Assembly (NCBI GenBank): GCA_004376975.1 | Contig: SOJA01000168.1 | Location: forward strand, 1-6,121 | From: Candidatus Bathyarchaeota archaeon | GTDB lineage: Archaea; Thermoproteota; Bathyarchaeia; Bathyarchaeales; UBA233 | DNA length: 6,121 nucleotides | Direction: 5' to 3' | In this document: positions 526 through 5,962 of the stretch, one piece after another | Numbering within the stretch: position 1 is the stretch's first letter | Layout of the letters: the number at the start of each line of letters is the position of its first letter | The notes under the pieces: generated by a model | Seen by the model: the letters and a program-made list of their open reading frames with translations, nothing else | Database searches by the model: none | Told to the model about the DNA's origin: nothing | Program-made: the position numbers and the translations under genes

Positions 526-652
526 GGGGTCGTCGTCTAGTTAGAGTTTCTGGCTTTGATTTGGTAGGTATCTTGGTTAGGATTCTCCTAGAGTGGTCAA
601 GGATACCAGCCTGGGGCGCTGGCGATCCGGGGTTCAAATCCCCGCGACCCCA
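526..652 (+). tRNA. tRNA-Pro(GGG) with D-loop intron
   Basis: The acceptor stem GGGGTCG (526-532) pairs perfectly with CGACCCC (645-651), followed by discriminator A652. The anticodon arm is CCAGC (606-610)/GCTGG (618-622) with loop CTGGGGC, giving anticodon GGG (613-615). The variable loop is 5 nt (623-627). The T-arm is CGGGG/TTCAAAT/CCCCG (628-644). The D-arm only closes if 51 nt are removed: GTCT (535-538) then pairs with GGAT (601-604), including G-U pairs, around an 11-nt D-loop containing GG (595-596), and the mature tRNA is 76 nt. No CCA is encoded. The gene is flanked on both sides by integrase sequence on the other strand, as expected for an integration target. Confidence 0.9.
543..593 (+). 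other. 51-nt non-canonical tRNA intron (D-loop) with bulge-helix-bulge ends
   Basis: The two CTAG tetranucleotides at 537-540 and 588-591 are self-complementary and form the 4-bp central helix. They are flanked by 3-nt bulges TTA (541-543) and AGT (592-594). An inner helix GAG/CTC (544-546 with 585-587) follows. Cutting each bulge after its second base removes 543-593 and leaves the D-loop AGTTTGGTCAA. Because CTAG is repeated, removing 51 nt anywhere across 537-591 gives nearly the same product, so the exact junction is inferred from the known cleavage position of archaeal splicing endonuclease. The outer helix is weak (T536-G595 only), so this is a relaxed motif. The intron is too short to encode a homing endonuclease. 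Confidence 0.8.
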
Positions 653-689: not shown

Positions 690-1230
690 CTACTTTCGTT
701 TCCGGAACAGCTTTTTGGCGTCCATGTCAGTGACGAAATCGAAACCGCTTTCAACGAGTTCTTTAGCTCCTTAATTGTCTCAGCAACTTTGCAGGTGAAC
801 TCGTCGTCCTTAAAGTCCATCAGCTGTGTATATTTCATTGTGTTTTGTATGGATTTGTGGCCGAGAAGCTGTTTCACATATAGAATGTCCTTTGTGCGAT
901 GATACTCCATAGTAGCTTTCCAATGTCTGAAGGTGTGGAAGTGTATCTGCTCAATTCTTCGATTCTGAAGTTTGTGGGATGATTTTCTTCTTTGTCTACG
1001 AAAACTTCTGGCGAAGTGTATTAGTGATCCGTTGAACGTTTCAGGTGTTTGTTGCGGTAGTAACTTCAGCATTGCGACGAGTTTGCTGCTGATCTTAAGC
1101 ACTCTTGGATTGCTTCCTTTCTTAGGAGTAACTCTCACTGTATTACTGACAAAGTCGATTTCTGTCCAATGAAGTTTCCATGCTTCACCAATTCTCATGC
1201 CTGTTTCCTTCAACAGTTGCGCGCGCGAAG
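690..1230 (-). pseudogene. Tyrosine recombinase remnant: catalytic domain only, frameshifted
   Basis: Minus-strand translation gives a clear integrase catalytic domain: LLKETGMRIGEAW (box I, Arg at 1195-1193), a beta-hairpin TPKKGSNPR (Lys), HTFRH (937-923), LGHKS, and NTMKYTQL with the nucleophilic Tyr at 832-830. All catalytic residues are therefore present. The N-terminal DNA-binding domain is missing: homology fades about 11 bp beyond the tldE stop, where a GCGCGCGC run sits. Near 761-763 a one-base deletion in an A-run shifts the frame. The expected continuation (ELVESGFDFVTDMD ... LFRKRK, stop at 692-690) is intact in the neighbouring frame. With no start codon, no N-terminus and a frameshift, it is decayed or, less likely for the frameshift alone, contains a sequencing error. 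It is a different lineage from the integrase left of the tRNA, judged by box I. Confidence 0.85.
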
Positions 1231-2604
1231 CTACCCTGACACAGTGAGGTTTTCGATGGTTAAGCTGGGGATTTTACCTACGCTTGTGATTCTTGAATCC
1301 GAACCGATTGTGGCTATGTTCTTTAATGAATGGAAGAAGTTCCCAGCGATTGTTATAGGTTCTAGGGGAAACTTGACTTCTCCGTTCTTTATCATAAATG
1401 CGCTGGGAGCTACTACACTGAATTCTCCAGTAGTCATATTTGCGTGTCCAGAACCCATTACAAAGTCGGTGACTAGCACGCCTTCGTCGACTTCACCTAT
1501 TAATCTCTCCAAGTCTTTTCTTCCTGCTTTGACGACTAGGTTTGAAGTTGCTACGTTAGGCGTGTACAGGAACGGCTCTGGCCATTGCCTGCCTGCGTTT
1601 CCTGTGCTTGACTTGTTTTCTTGAAGGGCTGAGTAACTGTCATACAGGTAATTTTCTAAGACGCCATTTTGTATGAGAGTGGTAGTTTGGGAAGGGGTTC
1701 CTTCGCTGTCAAGTTTGAACGTCAGTAACCCTTCTGGTAGCTGGCCGTCATCCATGATAGTGAAGATGTTGCTGGCCACTTTTTTGCCGAGTTTTCCTTT
1801 GAAGAAGCTTTTTCCTTCTTGTACGTTTCTGGCGCTTGATGCTGAGTTGAACATCCATTTCAGTAGTGGACTTATTGAGATGTTCTCCCAAACGACTGTG
1901 GTTAGGAAGGATTTGTTCAGCTTTTTTGACTTGAGCATTTTTATGGCACGTTGAGCAGCGTCTGATCCGACCTTGCGAAAGTCAACGAGTTTTCTTGAAT
2001 CAATTTTCTCTGAGCCGGTTTTTCGTTTTCCATTTTCAATAGCTGTGAGGTAGGCGCCTCCTCCTACTATAGCTGTCTTGGAACAGCCTGTGACCCCTCT
2101 TGAATTGCTTACAGCGAATACGCCTTTTTGGACGCCGACTCCGCCGTACAAGCCCTTGACACGTTTGTCATATTCAAACCCGGTTTTTGCGAGGTCGTTC
2201 ACTTCTTTTAATGCTTGAGTTTCAGAGAATTGAAGGATTTTTTCGTCGATTTTTCCGTCTTTTGAAGGTATTGACAAACGATCTGGTAGATGAGTGAATC
2301 TTGGATCTAACGGTCGAATCTTCGCGACGTCTAGAGCTTCTTCTATTGTGTCGTTGATTCTCGTCTCACTTATTCCGCTTGTAGCTGCAAATCCCACTTT
2401 TTTGTCTAATACGACTCTTATTCCTAGTCCGAGTGATGTGCCTTCTCTTGCCTCTATGACGCTTGTCTTTAGAGTGATGTTGATTGTGTTTATGTTTGAG
2501 ATGAAGACTTCAGCTTCTTCAGCTCCCTTTCCTTTTGCCTTTTTGACGCCTGATTCTGCAAGAGTGGAGAGTTCGTCTGCAATTTTGTCCAGGTCAATGG
2601 TCAT
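1231..2604 (-). CDS. tldE: TldE/PmbA-family protein, non-catalytic partner of TldD
   Basis: The 457-residue protein matches the length and layout of the TldE (PmbA) family. An N-terminal domain contains SLGLGIRVVLDKKVGFAATS (about residues 57-76), followed by the long central region. The C-terminal barrel has the family signature GSGHANMTTGEFSVVAPSAF (from residue 384) and the PITIAGNF element. It lacks the HExxxH zinc motif of TldD, as known for this subunit. TldD and TldE form a heterodimeric metalloprotease that degrades unfolded peptides and, in bacteria, matures microcin B17 and affects CcdA stability. The archaeal substrate is unknown. The start is well fixed: ATG overlaps the tldD stop as ATGA and is preceded by GGAGGTG at 2618-2612 with 7-nt spacing, implying translational coupling. 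The stop is 11 bp from an integrase remnant. No terminator is visible downstream. Confidence 0.93.
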   Translation of the reverse strand: MTIDLDKIADELSTLAESGVKKAKGKGAEEAEVFISNINTINITLKTSVIEAREGTSLGLGIRVVLDKKVGFAATSGISETRINDTIEEALDVAKIRPLDPRFTHLPDRLSIPSKDGKIDEKILQFSETQALKEVNDLAKTGFEYDKRVKGLYGGVGVQKGVFAVSNSRGVTGCSKTAIVGGGAYLTAIENGKRKTGSEKIDSRKLVDFRKVGSDAAQRAIKMLKSKKLNKSFLTTVVWENISISPLLKWMFNSASSARNVQEGKSFFKGKLGKKVASNIFTIMDDGQLPEGLLTFKLDSEGTPSQTTTLIQNGVLENYLYDSYSALQENKSSTGNAGRQWPEPFLYTPNVATSNLVVKAGRKDLERLIGEVDEGVLVTDFVMGSGHANMTTGEFSVVAPSAFMIKNGEVKFPLEPITIAGNFFHSLKNIATIGSDSRITSVGKIPSLTIENLTVSG

Positions 2605-4049
2605 TGCTTTTCACCTCCAAACTGGACATCACTGACTAGAAGGTGTGGACCTCCAAGGCCTACTGGTAATGGCCACTGTCCGTCTTTTCCGCATCCTCCA
2701 TAATAGCTGCTATACATGAAGAGCTCTTTTGTTGCGCCTTCTACATTCTTGAGAAAGTCCAGGATTGACCCTGTTAATGTGACTTCGCGTAGAGGATATT
2801 TCTTTTCTCCTTTTTCAATGTAGTATCCCCTGAGGGCTTTGAACATGAATGTGCCGTCCATGTTTGCTTGTCCTCCTGCAGTGCGGATGGCGTATATGCC
2901 TGTGTCAAGTTGTTCCATTGCTTCTTCCAAAGATAGGTCGCCTGGAGAGAAGTATGTGTTTCTCATTCTGACAATTGGCGGAAAGCTGTAGTTGATTGCT
3001 CGAGCGTTTCCAGTGAAGTCGCTCTTCATGAGAGTAGCCGTGTTCCGGTCGTGGAGATATCCTGTTAGCTTACCTTTGTCAAGTATGGTCAGTTTGTTTG
3101 TTTTTATTCCTTGATCATCAAAAGGCAGCCAGAAACCATAGAATCGGCTCATGTCTGGAGTGCCTTCATCAATTATCGTTGTTTTTTCAGAACCTAGTTG
3201 TTGACCTACTTTTTCAGCTAGGGGGGACATGCCGGACATCACGAAGTCGCTCTCTGTCAGATGGCCGAAGCTTTCGTGAGCTAGCACTCCAACTAGGCGG
3301 TTTTCACATAGAGCTCGATGTCTGCCAGGTGGAGCAGGTTTTGCATCCAGCTTTTCTGCAGCCCATTTTCCCGCGTTTTCACCTATCTTTTCAGGTGTGT
3401 AATCGTCAGTGTTGAATAGCTCTAGCCCGAAGCTTCCTCCTATACCATCAGCACCGTCTGCAAGTAAGTCGCCGAGTTTTGATACTACGCGAATCCTGAG
3501 GTCTGTTACTAATGGTGACCATGAGATTTCGGTTCCTTCACTGTTCGTGAAGTATTTTTGACCGAAAAGTTCTCCGTAACGCGATGTTACCGACGAAATA
3601 TTTTTTCCGTGTTCCATTGCTGCTTTGACGCTTCTAAGAAGCAAATCTTTCTTAAAAGCTATGGAGAAGTCTTTTGGATGTTTCTTGACGGATAGTTTCA
3701 GTTCTTTTTGTGTGTGTGGTTCGGATTGACCTGGGTCAATCTTGATCTTGGCGGTCTCTGATGAGGCTTTAGCTATTTTGAATGCTCTGTTTGTTGTGTC
3801 TTCGATTGCTGTTCTGTTCAGTTTCGTTGTGAAGGAGTAGCCAGTAGCACCGTTGTAATATATGATTACGCCTACTCCGACTCGATGCATGGTTTTGACG
3901 TCTTTCACTTCTTCTTTTTCTGTTCTGATTTCTATGATAGAGAAGTCGTCGTATCGGGCTTCAACAAACCTGACTCCCAGTTTTTCTCCCGTTATTATGG
4001 CATGTTGAATTAGATCAAACAAATCATTCACCTTACTTTCGATTTCCAC
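2601..4049 (-). CDS. tldD: TldD-family zinc metalloprotease subunit
   Basis: This is the catalytic half of the TldD/TldE protease. With a GTG start at 4049 it is 482 residues. The zinc motif HESFGH sits at residues 258-263 within LVGVLAHESFGHLTESD. The conserved C-terminal GGCGKDGQ (Cys at about 453) supplies the further metal ligand known in this family, and the end LVSDVQFGGE is typical. The longest open frame begins at ATG 4154, but its extra 35 residues are Cys-rich and unlike the family. A TATA box at 4095-4102 would also lie inside it, so I chose GTG 4049; GTG 4031 is an alternative, and neither has a clear Shine-Dalgarno. The predicted leader is about 20 nt. It is the first gene of the tldD-tldE operon, and its last codons hold the ribosome binding site of tldE. 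Confidence 0.92.
   Translation of the reverse strand: MEIESKVNDLFDLIQHAIITGEKLGVRFVEARYDDFSIIEIRTEKEEVKDVKTMHRVGVGVIIYYNGATGYSFTTKLNRTAIEDTTNRAFKIAKASSETAKIKIDPGQSEPHTQKELKLSVKKHPKDFSIAFKKDLLLRSVKAAMEHGKNISSVTSRYGELFGQKYFTNSEGTEISWSPLVTDLRIRVVSKLGDLLADGADGIGGSFGLELFNTDDYTPEKIGENAGKWAAEKLDAKPAPPGRHRALCENRLVGVLAHESFGHLTESDFVMSGMSPLAEKVGQQLGSEKTTIIDEGTPDMSRFYGFWLPFDDQGIKTNKLTILDKGKLTGYLHDRNTATLMKSDFTGNARAINYSFPPIVRMRNTYFSPGDLSLEEAMEQLDTGIYAIRTAGGQANMDGTFMFKALRGYYIEKGEKKYPLREVTLTGSILDFLKNVEGATKELFMYSSYYGGCGKDGQWPLPVGLGGPHLLVSDVQFGGEKQ
2612..2618 (-). promoter_or_regulatory. Strong Shine-Dalgarno of tldE inside the end of tldD
   Basis: GGAGGTG on the minus strand ends 7 nt before the tldE ATG (2604) and lies within the last codons of tldD. 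It decides the tldE start. Together with the 4-nt ATGA overlap it suggests coupled translation and near-equal subunit amounts for a heterodimer. Confidence 0.85.
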
Positions 4050-4094
4050 TGCTAAGTTCGTAATAGTGTATTGTGTTAATGAAAGCGTACAGAA

Positions 4095-4102
4095 TTTATA
4101 AG
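4095..4102 (-). promoter_or_regulatory. TATA box of the tldD-tldE operon
   Basis: The minus strand reads CTTATAAA here, a good archaeal TATA box. Transcription would begin around 4072, about 23 nt before the proposed GTG start at 4049. No clear purine BRE element stands out upstream. Confidence 0.6.
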
Positions 4103-4213
4103 ACTGTCTGAGGCAGCAACAGTTAGGACGCACACAGAAACATAATAGGTACAAGTGTTTTCCAGACGATTTTAATCTCTTGCGTGTGCAGGCATTTGTG
4201 CTTTTGGAAAGGA

Positions 4214-4260
4214 AGTGGGGATTTTGCGGGAGACATCTCCACTGTGTTTGTGTTCGAATA
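4214..4260 (+). repeat. tRNA-like intergenic element A (degenerate)
   Basis: AGTGGGGA (4214-4221) can pair with TCTCCACT (4236-4243), 8 bp with one G-U, and a smaller GGAG/CTCC hairpin sits inside. The block TGGGGATTTTGCGGGA (4216-4231) is identical to element B. A weak T-arm-like hairpin follows (GTTT...AAAC around TTCGAAT, near 4246-4263). It fills the gap between the 42-residue ORF and tldD. It is probably an older, more decayed member of the same family as B and C. Strand is given as that of the T-loop-like sequence. Confidence 0.5.
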
Positions 4261-4273
4261 AACCTTATCCTTT

Positions 4274-4402
4274 TTACTGAACCTTATTCCTCTTATTTTC
4301 GCTTAGGAAGATTTTGTCACCATCAATGTACTCCTCCGTCATGTATTCAAAGCCGACTTCAAGCAAGGCTTTTCTCTTTTCAGGCTCAGGTCTTAAGAGC
4401 AT
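4274..4402 (-). CDS. Small hypothetical protein, 42 residues
   Basis: ATG at 4402-4400 opens a 42-codon frame ending in TAA (4276-4274), starting MLLRPEPEKRKALLEVGFEY and ending in a lysine/arginine-rich tail. The composition is that of a real charged soluble protein, and the frame lies only 20 nt after the methyltransferase stop on the same strand, so it is probably co-transcribed. An in-frame stop just upstream (TGA, two codons before) fixes the earliest start. No Shine-Dalgarno is evident. I do not recognise the family, and chance cannot be excluded at this length. Confidence 0.5.
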   Translation of the reverse strand: MLLRPEPEKRKALLEVGFEYMTEEYIDGDKIFLSENKRNKVQ

Positions 4403-4422
4403 CAGTCACACTTGCCCACTGC

Positions 4423-5163
4423 CTATTTTTTCCGGTTTGCAGGCTTTTGCCCTGAGAAGATGAGAAGTTTTGGGTATTTCATCCCATACTTGTCTATGAG
4501 TGGGCCAAGTCTCTTCTCAACATCTGAATCATACCATACTTGTGCAAAACTCAGCTCCTGCTTTGCCAAGAGAGGGGAAAACCAAATATTGCTATCAAAC
4601 TGCTCTATGTAGACCTTCGCTAATCCACTAGTTTTCATTGATTTGGCTATTTGCTTGCTTTCGAAAAAACAATCTCCGCTTTCCATGTGAAGCCTAATGT
4701 AAGTCTCTTCAGCCTTGTTTCTGGCTTTGCTACTCAACTCGACGAGACAAACCTTTCCACCATTCTTAACCGCACGGACCATCTCACGAACAACTCTTGG
4801 CATATCCTCACATCTTTTCAACTCCTCAAGAAGACGAAAACTCACAACCATGTGAGCAAAATCATCCGTTATTTCATCTTTAAGATTGGTTGCGTCGGCT
4901 TGAACAAACGTGACAGTGTTCTTGACTCCATATCTGTTTAAGCGTTCTATAAACTCATCTAAGTACTCATTTGTAACATCAATGGCTATCACCTTGCCAG
5001 CTTCTCCCACAATCTTCGCAAGAGAAGCAGTGAAGCCACCCTGTCCACAACCCACATCTAAGATAGTCATCCCTTTGTGAACCCCGATCCATCTCACAAC
5101 TCTGAGTTTCAGTTCAAAGATCGCGTGTTCGAGTGACTCAGGATCTGTTATACTCCAGCGCAT
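4423..5163 (-). CDS. Class I SAM-dependent methyltransferase
   Basis: This 246-residue protein has a Rossmann-type methyltransferase core. Motif I is ILDVGCGQGGFT (residues 34-45), the SAM-ribose acidic residue is in VIAIDVT (Asp62), the QADATNL segment (88-94) contacts the adenine, and strand GGKVCLVEL (135-143) follows the usual post-motif pattern. The family resembles UbiE/COQ5-like or Methyltransf_11/25 small-molecule methylases; the sequence does not show the substrate. No signal peptide or membrane segment is visible, so it is cytoplasmic. The ATG is preceded by GGGAGG at 5172-5167 with an unusually short 3-nt gap. A candidate TATA box is at 5209-5217. It is followed by a 42-residue ORF 20 nt downstream. 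Confidence 0.88.
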   Translation of the reverse strand: MRWSITDPESLEHAIFELKLRVVRWIGVHKGMTILDVGCGQGGFTASLAKIVGEAGKVIAIDVTNEYLDEFIERLNRYGVKNTVTFVQADATNLKDEITDDFAHMVVSFRLLEELKRCEDMPRVVREMVRAVKNGGKVCLVELSSKARNKAEETYIRLHMESGDCFFESKQIAKSMKTSGLAKVYIEQFDSNIWFSPLLAKQELSFAQVWYDSDVEKRLGPLIDKYGMKYPKLLIFSGQKPANRKK

Positions 5164-5208
5164 TTACCTCCCACCCCTAAGAGGCATCTGAAATAACTTC
5201 GCATTCAC

Positions 5209-5217
5209 ATAATAAAG
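5209..5217 (-). promoter_or_regulatory. Possible TATA box of the methyltransferase gene
   Basis: The minus strand reads CTTTATTAT about 45 nt before the ATG at 5163. This allows a transcript start near 5186 and a leader of about 23 nt containing the GGGAGG ribosome binding site. Confidence 0.45.
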
Positions 5218-5264
5218 AGTATCGTCATCGAGTCTGTCTGAGAAGCGATTGGTGCTTGAAAATA

Positions 5265-5331
5265 TGGGGATTTTGCGGGAAACAGTGGAGACATCACCAG
5301 CGCACTGGGGGTTCAAATCCCCCCCACTCTT
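5265..5331 (+). repeat. tRNA-like element B: acceptor/T-arm minihelix
   Basis: The element starts with TGGGGATTTTGCGGGA (5265-5280), identical to element A. A canonical T-arm follows: GGGGG (5307-5311), loop TTCAAAT, CCCCC (5319-5323). CCACTCT (5324-5330) pairs with ACAGTGG (5282-5288) in 6 of 7 positions, with one C-C mismatch. Only 18 nt lie between the acceptor 5' strand and the T-stem, so D and anticodon arms are absent. It is not a functional standard tRNA. It may be an internally deleted tRNA relic or an unrecognised small RNA. It sits between the divergent methyltransferase and lipocalin-like genes, and a CGCGCGC run (5335-5341) follows it. Confidence 0.6.
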
Positions 5332-5351
5332 CAACGCGCGCAGAGCAAAGC

Positions 5352-5361
5352 AAAAATAAAT
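5352..5361 (+). promoter_or_regulatory. Possible TATA box of the lipocalin-like gene
   Basis: AAAAATAAAT lies about 38 nt upstream of ATG 5395. Transcription would begin near 5383, giving a very short leader, which fits the absence of a Shine-Dalgarno. Confidence 0.45.
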
Positions 5362-5394
5362 CCGAATTAGTACGTGTTCTGGAAGTGTTAGAAA

Positions 5395-5844
5395 ATGGAA
5401 AAGTCTATCCGAAATTCAGCGACCATGGTCGGTGCGTGGAAGCTAACTTCACTTAAGATCCAAAAGGCAAATGGAGAAGTGGTTTATCCTTTTGGGAAAA
5501 ATGCGCGAGGGTCAATTATATACACTGATTCTGGACGCTTTTCAGCACAAGTCATGCGTCCCGACCGGCCCAAGTTCACCTCTGGAGACCAGATGAAGGG
5601 AACATCTGAGGAAATTAAAGCAAACTATGAAGGGTACGTATCGTATTACGGGTCTTACGAATTTGACAATGAATATGGCTTCATCATCCATCATGTAGAA
5701 GGCTCATTGTTTCCTAACTGGGAAGGGCAGGGACTAAAACGTTTCTTTGAACTGTCAGGCAATCGGTTGAAGATAAGTACTCCACCGACATTGTGGGGCG
5801 GCGGCAGAGAAGTGGTCATCTTAATCTGGGAGCGTATTGTATGA
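5395..5844 (+). CDS. Lipocalin-like domain protein
   Basis: The 149-residue protein fits the small lipocalin-like family often annotated as Lipocalin_5 (PF13924). The GAWKLTSLK strand is at about residues 13-21, then GEVVYPFGKNARGSIIYTDSGRFSAQVM in two overlapping segments (about 27-54), and a beta-rich C-terminal half ends in VVILIWERI. This family forms a beta-barrel thought to hold small ligands; its physiological role is generally unknown. There is no signal peptide. The ATG at 5395 is used, but ATG 5425 begins exactly at the conserved MVGAWKL and would remove ten unconserved residues; neither has a good Shine-Dalgarno. It stands alone between two tRNA-like elements. Confidence 0.75.
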   Translation: MEKSIRNSATMVGAWKLTSLKIQKANGEVVYPFGKNARGSIIYTDSGRFSAQVMRPDRPKFTSGDQMKGTSEEIKANYEGYVSYYGSYEFDNEYGFIIHHVEGSLFPNWEGQGLKRFFELSGNRLKISTPPTLWGGGREVVILIWERIV

Positions 5845-5884
5845 GAAACGCACAGACAATCGCTTTCCATTAGTAGAAAAAAGA

Positions 5885-5940
5885 GGGGTCACGCGGGAGA
5901 TGTCTCCATTTGTCCGGGGTTCAAATCCCCGCAACTCCAC
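5885..5940 (+). repeat. tRNA-like element C: acceptor/T-arm minihelix
   Basis: A perfect T-arm CGGGG/TTCAAAT/CCCCG (5915-5931) is followed by CAACTCC and discriminator-like A5939. CAACTCC (5932-5938) pairs with GGAGATG (5896-5902) in 6 of 7 positions, with one A-A mismatch. The connector is only 12 nt (5903-5914), so D and anticodon arms are absent. The 5' part GGGGTCACGCGGGAGA resembles elements A and B with substitutions, and GGAG-ATGT-CTCC can form the alternative small hairpin. A CCGCGCGCGG palindrome and a T-run follow. As for B, it is a tRNA relic or an undescribed small RNA. Confidence 0.6.
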
Positions 5941-5947
5941 TAGCAAT

Positions 5948-5962
5948 CCGCGCGCGGTTTTT
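5948..5962 (+). terminator. Possible hairpin plus T-run after element C
   Basis: The palindrome CCGCGCGCGG (5948-5957) is directly followed by five T residues. The hairpin is small, but a T-run is itself the main archaeal termination signal. It could end transcription of element C or of the lipocalin-like gene ahead of the ABC ATPase promoter. Confidence 0.4.

Follow-up and report, generated by a model that had tools for sequence, protein, structure and literature searches.

Elements A, B and C of the window (the whole stretch of 6,121 nt analysed here) are very probably attR-type scars. Small tyrosine-integrase islands would have left them while accumulating in tandem at a single tRNA-Pro gene, in a Bathyarchaeota-like archaeon. 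Such an island would enter a tRNA gene, the RNase P RNA gene or another site; the incoming DNA would restore the target at one end, beside the island's own integrase gene, and the displaced piece of the target would remain at the other end (the tail), directly behind the head, which would be the conserved terminal sequence of the element. Repeated entry would yield same-strand arrays. At the level of sequence, relatives show that the head is part of the insert and the tail displaced host DNA. They further show an integrase gene on the opposite strand whose C-terminal end faces the target, and arrays produced by repeated entry. By the same steps, the window would have become a tandem array of decayed islands starting at tRNA-Pro.

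The head as a dispersed conserved sequence

The head is a constant part of ~35 nt, made up of an A-run, GGGG and GCGGGAGANNTCKCCA, and the richest relatives of a Bathyarchaeota MAG carry tens of copies. With up to two mismatches, its core has 26 matches in the CG07 MAG (G001; 22 places, four of them on both strands) against none for the reversed control, and eight against three in G002. With at most one mismatch, 60 genomes related to G001 give 483 matches against 64 reversed, and 59 of the 60 hold a match. The model built on head alignment A1, which took in 65 of 71 copies, finds at an E of 0.1 64 copies in G032, 46 in G050, 43 in G018 and 5-34 in seven other searched genomes, with weak best scores in G002 and G049. 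The head profile at 14 bits or more has 99 matches against 0 reversed in 0.70 Mb, these being stretches chosen for holding copies. The sequence-only reading had expected further copies and a dispersed family rather than three independent dead tRNAs, and the searches of relatives, run with a model of the copies, bear this out.

What is conserved in the head is its sequence, not a stem. The hairpin ascribed to the elements finds no support as an RNA stem: paired cells make up 89.2%, shuffled versions reach 90.1%, and one of its four pairs is broken in 27 of 65 copies. An RNA hairpin or small-RNA family was rejected on the lack of covariation and on folding z-scores of -1.58, 0.58 and -1.60 for A, B and C. 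Other roles were also tried and set aside: a terminator in reverse orientation (downstream genes are 41 on the opposite and 35 on the same strand, upstream genes 36 and 44), a polarity tied to replication (distant clusters of one contig lie on differing strands) and an insertion-sequence end with inverted repeats (no inverted head was seen by eye behind intact targets).

Upstream of several heads a stretch of ~90 nt recurs (GGTCTCGGT...GCTCGTAGTA...; L016, L018, L020 and L022 in G001, L075 and L084 in G003). It joins different tails and is either a second repeat or a shared element end.

Tails, targets and the integrase

Tails are tRNA 3' ends, reversed tRNA 5' halves, the 3' end of RNase P RNA or one conserved upstream region, and their sources comprise tRNA-Pro, Phe, Glu, Asn, Cys, Ile, His and Gly, RNase P RNA and others. 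The class dominated by the tRNA T-arm and acceptor strand holds 43 of 142 distinct copies, the remainder falling into small classes or singletons; reversed 5' halves of tRNA-Glu and tRNA-Gly serve as other tails. The tail-target test used 141 heads (eight of 149, with a short tail or less than 400 nt upstream, were left out). At a score of at least 18, the tail matches a same-strand stretch up to 20 kb upstream for 25 of the 141, against 0 on the opposite strand and 0 reversed; at a score of 16 the counts are 33, 5 and 1. Tails set against upstream sequence swapped between genomes give a mean of 1.1 and a maximum of 3 matches, and 20 matches survive masking of other heads and tails. Tail-to-target distances run from 0.5 to 14.7 kb. 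An upstream match at score 18 is missing for 116 of the 141 tails, many of them decayed and some with targets beyond the fetched stretch; MAG contigs are short, and decayed and recent units are counted together. Downstream, at a score of at least 18, 11 of 131 heads match on the same strand and one on the opposite strand (unsorted), the same-strand matches being those that arrays would be expected to give.

The archaeal RNase P RNA 3' end forms one tail class, and Rfam finds the gene in three loci. At L194 the gene is followed 4.7 kb on, on the same strand, by a head with the RNase P RNA 3' end, and in G024:C33 the gene and a head with its 3' end likewise share one strand. The upstream-region tail (CGATTTATGACTTATTA) was found 19 times, in 16 of the 60 genomes: six places have a head, 12 share one headless context and one is different. 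An integrase C-terminus lies behind three of these 12 intact copies. Tail class GGAAATAGGGCAACCC (L400, L402-L405 and others) has a head at seven of seven places, and no intact target was found for it among them.

The separate origins of head and tail emerge from the thermosome locus, at which 30 relatives of G015 were searched and the gene was found in 29. Twenty-one of 30 loci were read as eight with a complete tRNA-Glu, four with an interrupted one and nine with neither; among these nine, L377 carries a head but no Glu piece that could be read, and L383 ends there. The remaining nine of the 30 hold neither tRNA nor head. Complete tRNA-Glu genes stand behind the thermosome gene in G008, G017, G016, G040, G021 and G014, and, with extra internal sequence, in G042 and G007, so that the uninterrupted site is found, in relatives only; no such free site came to light for the species of the window itself. 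In G015, G009 and two loci of G012, only the first 23 nt of tRNA-Glu are left; two of the loci agree exactly with G008 and two differ from it at 2-3 positions. A stretch of 13-14 nt separates this piece from the head, which stands in reverse. The heads score 28.0, 17.8 and 14.6 bits, and the fourth (L375), under the profile threshold, was read by eye. The rest of tRNA-Glu was found across the insert in G015 only, 2.2 kb away. The comparison thus assigns the tail to the host and the head to the insert. The extra sequence of G042 (L387) and G007 (L373) is intron-like and sits at or near the break position of the inserted copies (after GGTCA), which brings to mind the suggestion that introns in tRNA genes protect attachment sites (in the accessible text of PMC3293823).

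The integrase adjoining the targets is a tyrosine recombinase whose C-terminus is characteristic (GFEYVC..G.KLFRKRK). Among solved proteins, XerC-like and XerA proteins are its best relatives; among named families, archaeal XerA scores best, at 116 bits against a cut-off of 220. The strict motif occurs beside eight of 33 matched targets (seven distinct) vs 18 of 1963 random places. From the end of the matched stretch to the stop codon the distance is 25-28 nt at five of these targets, and 3 and 45 nt at two. A C-terminal profile, built from 11 sequences with a twelfth left out, has 36 matches in 1.08 Mb, 11 of which are its own sources, and it matches 15 of 20 fetched integrase loci. Of the 36 C-termini, 34 are opposite in strand to the nearest head and nine lie 44-78 nt past a head; a remnant stands at the expected place after only nine of 149 heads. 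Across 60 genomes, head counts rise with the number of integrase relatives: the Spearman correlation is 0.62 (p 1.3e-7), against 0.0003 for a control pattern, and it is 0.56 when genome size is kept constant. Among the exceptions are G030 (six heads, no integrase match), G016 (12 matches, seven heads) and G058 (six matches, one head). Neighbouring heads lie on the same strand in 43 of 45 pairs (36 of 37 within 3 kb). In G011 (G011:C4, L228), two intact integrases flank a tRNA that the author reads as tRNA-Phe(gaa), and there is a head-bearing unit to either side; the tRNA is used from both ends, one tail being its 3' half and the other its reversed 5' half.

A viral contig carries the same components. 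In L349 (IMG/VR, record of 26.5 kb), an integrase C-terminus, 60 nt and a head stand in a row, close to genes for portal, head maturation protease, scaffold and major head protein. The row has the appearance expected of a candidate attP; it may also represent two neighbouring elements. A scan of at least 120 virus-contig loci gave a clear head, of 27 bits or more, on five contigs, L349 among them, and a doubtful one at ~21 bits on two; the others do not exceed chance. Terminal repeats were looked for in the five contigs and none turned up, hence no sign of a circular L349.

The window as a probable tandem array

The presumed target, a tRNA-Pro gene at 526..652 (+), has extra sequence inside, which ARAGORN gives as an intron in the anticodon loop (tgg); no tRNA is detected in the window when the intron search is left out. 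By the author's reading, the gene carries ~50 nt of extra sequence within the D arm, and the ARAGORN fold differs. Beside it lies a decayed tyrosine integrase at 693..1213 (-), with a catalytic domain (PF00589, 82.9 bits, in ORF 2-1213) and, in another frame, a C-terminus (AKELVESGFDFVTDMDAKKLFRKRK) at 693-767 (-) that points at tRNA-Pro and matches the C-terminal profile at 41.1 bits. This remnant supplies the integrase beside the target. On the other side, what may be the N-terminal part of a second integrase (2-520, -; weak Pfam match, 20.5 bits) starts ~6 nt from the tRNA-Pro 5' end and runs out of the window.

The elements lie where they had been placed (A 4214-4260, B 5265-5331, C 5885-5940), all on the + strand and, as noted from the letters alone, without D or anticodon arms. 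Each occupies one gap of the right half: the three gaps right of tldD are filled, and tldD (ORF 2601-4154, -) overlaps pmbA (1231-2604, -), so that there is no gap between these two. A and B do have 16 bases in common (TGGGGATTTTGCGGGA), and repeat families D1, D4 and D6 catch the shared blocks. Of the T-arm attributed to all three, B and C have a block (GGGGTTCAAATCCCC) and A has no intact T-arm. The T-arm blocks give the sole Rfam matches of the window, to tmRNA and mascRNA, and these fall short of the curated cut-offs. A common tRNA-like body for the three does not hold up, as head and tail differ in origin.

Head C (5874..5908, +; 30.2 bits with the head profile) precedes tail C (5909..5949, +; repeat family D2), a displaced tRNA-Pro 3' fragment that matches the tRNA-Pro 3' end with 84% identity over 37 nt and a score of 28, extending 10 nt beyond the tRNA end. 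Head B (5265..5299, +) is a long form (GCGGGAAACAGTGGAGACATCACCA) with a weak head-profile score of 10.0 bits; similar long forms occur at L125, L213 and L219. Its tail (5300..5336, +) is a tRNA 3' end with a T-arm, which scores 16 against tRNA-Pro, the edge of noise. Head A (4208..4241, +) scores 31.4 bits, and tail A (4242..4283, +) is decayed, with no recognisable origin; against upstream sequence, tRNA-Pro included, it reaches a score of 13, which is noise, and it is presumably a decayed copy of a target piece. A second integrase C-terminal remnant (4304..4378, -; 24.7 bits) ends 62 nt past head A. Within the window, the pairing of an intact target with a displaced piece in the same orientation is present for C, weakly for B and not for A. 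As attR-type scars, C reads as well supported and B as weakly supported, and A reads as one through its head and the integrase remnant.

The genes between the scars are presumed cargo of the islands: pmbA and tldD, a methyltransferase gene (4423..5163, -) and a lipocalin-like gene (5395..5844, +; PF13924, 120.5 bits). A further ORF starting at the right end of the window has no Pfam match. The closest tldD relatives are in two Bathyarchaeota MAGs, with 78% and 71% identity in the best segment. In the CG07 MAG, pmbA/tldD are flanked by a tRNA (His) and a head, the tail of which scores 17 against that tRNA, an arrangement that suggests pmbA/tldD as cargo. At L002 the pair occurs without a head nearby.

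Known systems and alternative explanations

Integration at tRNA genes with a regenerated target and a displaced fragment is well known, as the accessible parts of the sources describe (PMC4383910, PMC3293823, PMC8371274), and so are such islands; the conserved head is without an earlier report among the best-ranked literature matches. Like the tRNA/tmRNA islands treated by Islander (PMC4383910, as far as accessible), the units described here have the regenerated target at one end, the displaced fragment at the other and the integrase beside the target. However, a conserved head stands at the displaced fragment, common to units with different targets, and RNase P RNA and an upstream region also serve as targets. 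SSV-type integrases, as set out in the available text (PMC3293823, PMC8371274), are likewise tyrosine recombinases with tRNA targets and 40-50 bp of shared sequence, but their attP lies inside the integrase gene, whereas here the stop codon falls outside the target wherever it was measured. In the pNOB8-type (PMC3293823, accessible part), an intact integrase gene adjoins the regenerated tRNA as here; there the integrase is on the tRNA strand, whereas at the 3'-end targets described here it occupies the other strand and its C-terminal end faces the tRNA. Head-tailed (pro)viruses of Bathyarchaeia (PMC11705971, PMC10848311) share the integrase, the tRNA and direct-repeat boundaries, and L349 is itself a tailed-virus contig, but a shared attachment arm is not mentioned in the accessible parts of these papers.

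By its position and its co-occurrence with the integrase, the head is a putative arm-type site of this integrase subfamily. Archaeal integrases are described as needing extra nucleotides outside the shared sequence (PMC8371274), and no mention of 'arm-binding' or 'arm sites' was found within the accessible text of that review. Among the best-ranked literature matches, with subscription papers mostly outside the scope, no report of a conserved head as a shared arm was found. In a wider form, the head would be the general arm site of the XerA-like integrase family, with viruses and, in trans, integrase-less units inserting into many RNA genes and piling up in same-strand arrays as a virus-derived, integron-like form of archaeal gene capture; this extension is unlikely. 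It is possible, if rather doubtful, that the scars are as described and the head is some other conserved terminal feature, such as a replication or packaging signal, that ends beside the attachment core. The accessible account of archaeal attachment sites, given without arm sites (PMC8371274), agrees with such a feature, but the head keeps a fixed place directly beside the core across units that differ in target, and its copy number tracks the integrase subfamily (with G030 and G058 among the exceptions).

The same-strand arrays, in which exactly one ORF of at least 90 aa lies between 20 of 45 neighbouring pairs, and the several units without a recognisable integrase also resemble integron-like cassettes, with heads as recombination sites of single-gene cassettes moved in trans. 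Archaeal integrons (PMC9668308, accessible part) similarly have repeated sites between genes in one orientation, but these are attC sites served by IntI, and neither is recognised here: by eye, no attC-like boxes were noticed, and the integron-integrase model TIGR02249 gives 72.1 and 76.6 bits against a cut-off of 265. Since, moreover, the tails are displaced RNA-gene pieces and integrase remnants adjoin many targets, cassettes are a very improbable explanation. The tRNA-derived, SINE-like RNA element envisaged by the sequence-only reading has next to no probability left. It would accommodate the many copies and the large T-arm-dominated class, but the compensatory changes sought in the stems are absent, and without covariation an RNA or SINE-like element lacks support. 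Against it also stand the tails drawn from RNase P RNA, from reversed tRNA halves and from an upstream region, the match of tails to their local target, and the thermosome comparison, which contradicts it. The family is defined by the head, which has no likeness to tRNA; the tRNA-like parts are displaced pieces of targets. That reading had itself named results that would count against it, and these fell out unevenly: covariation is lacking and a distinct neighbouring tRNA accounts for many tails, but further copies, of the head, do exist.

Understood as attR-type scars, tRNA-like repeats become a readable record of past insertions. In archaea of which few are in culture, the head is a simple marker of the attachment ends that belong to one integrase family; with it, viruses and islands that have integrated could be mapped in each genome, together with their targets and boundaries. 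The scars also draw attention to a putative conserved accessory site, absent from the accessible text of the archaeal-integrase review (PMC8371274), and make visible the accumulation of fragments of tRNA and RNase P RNA genes in these genomes.
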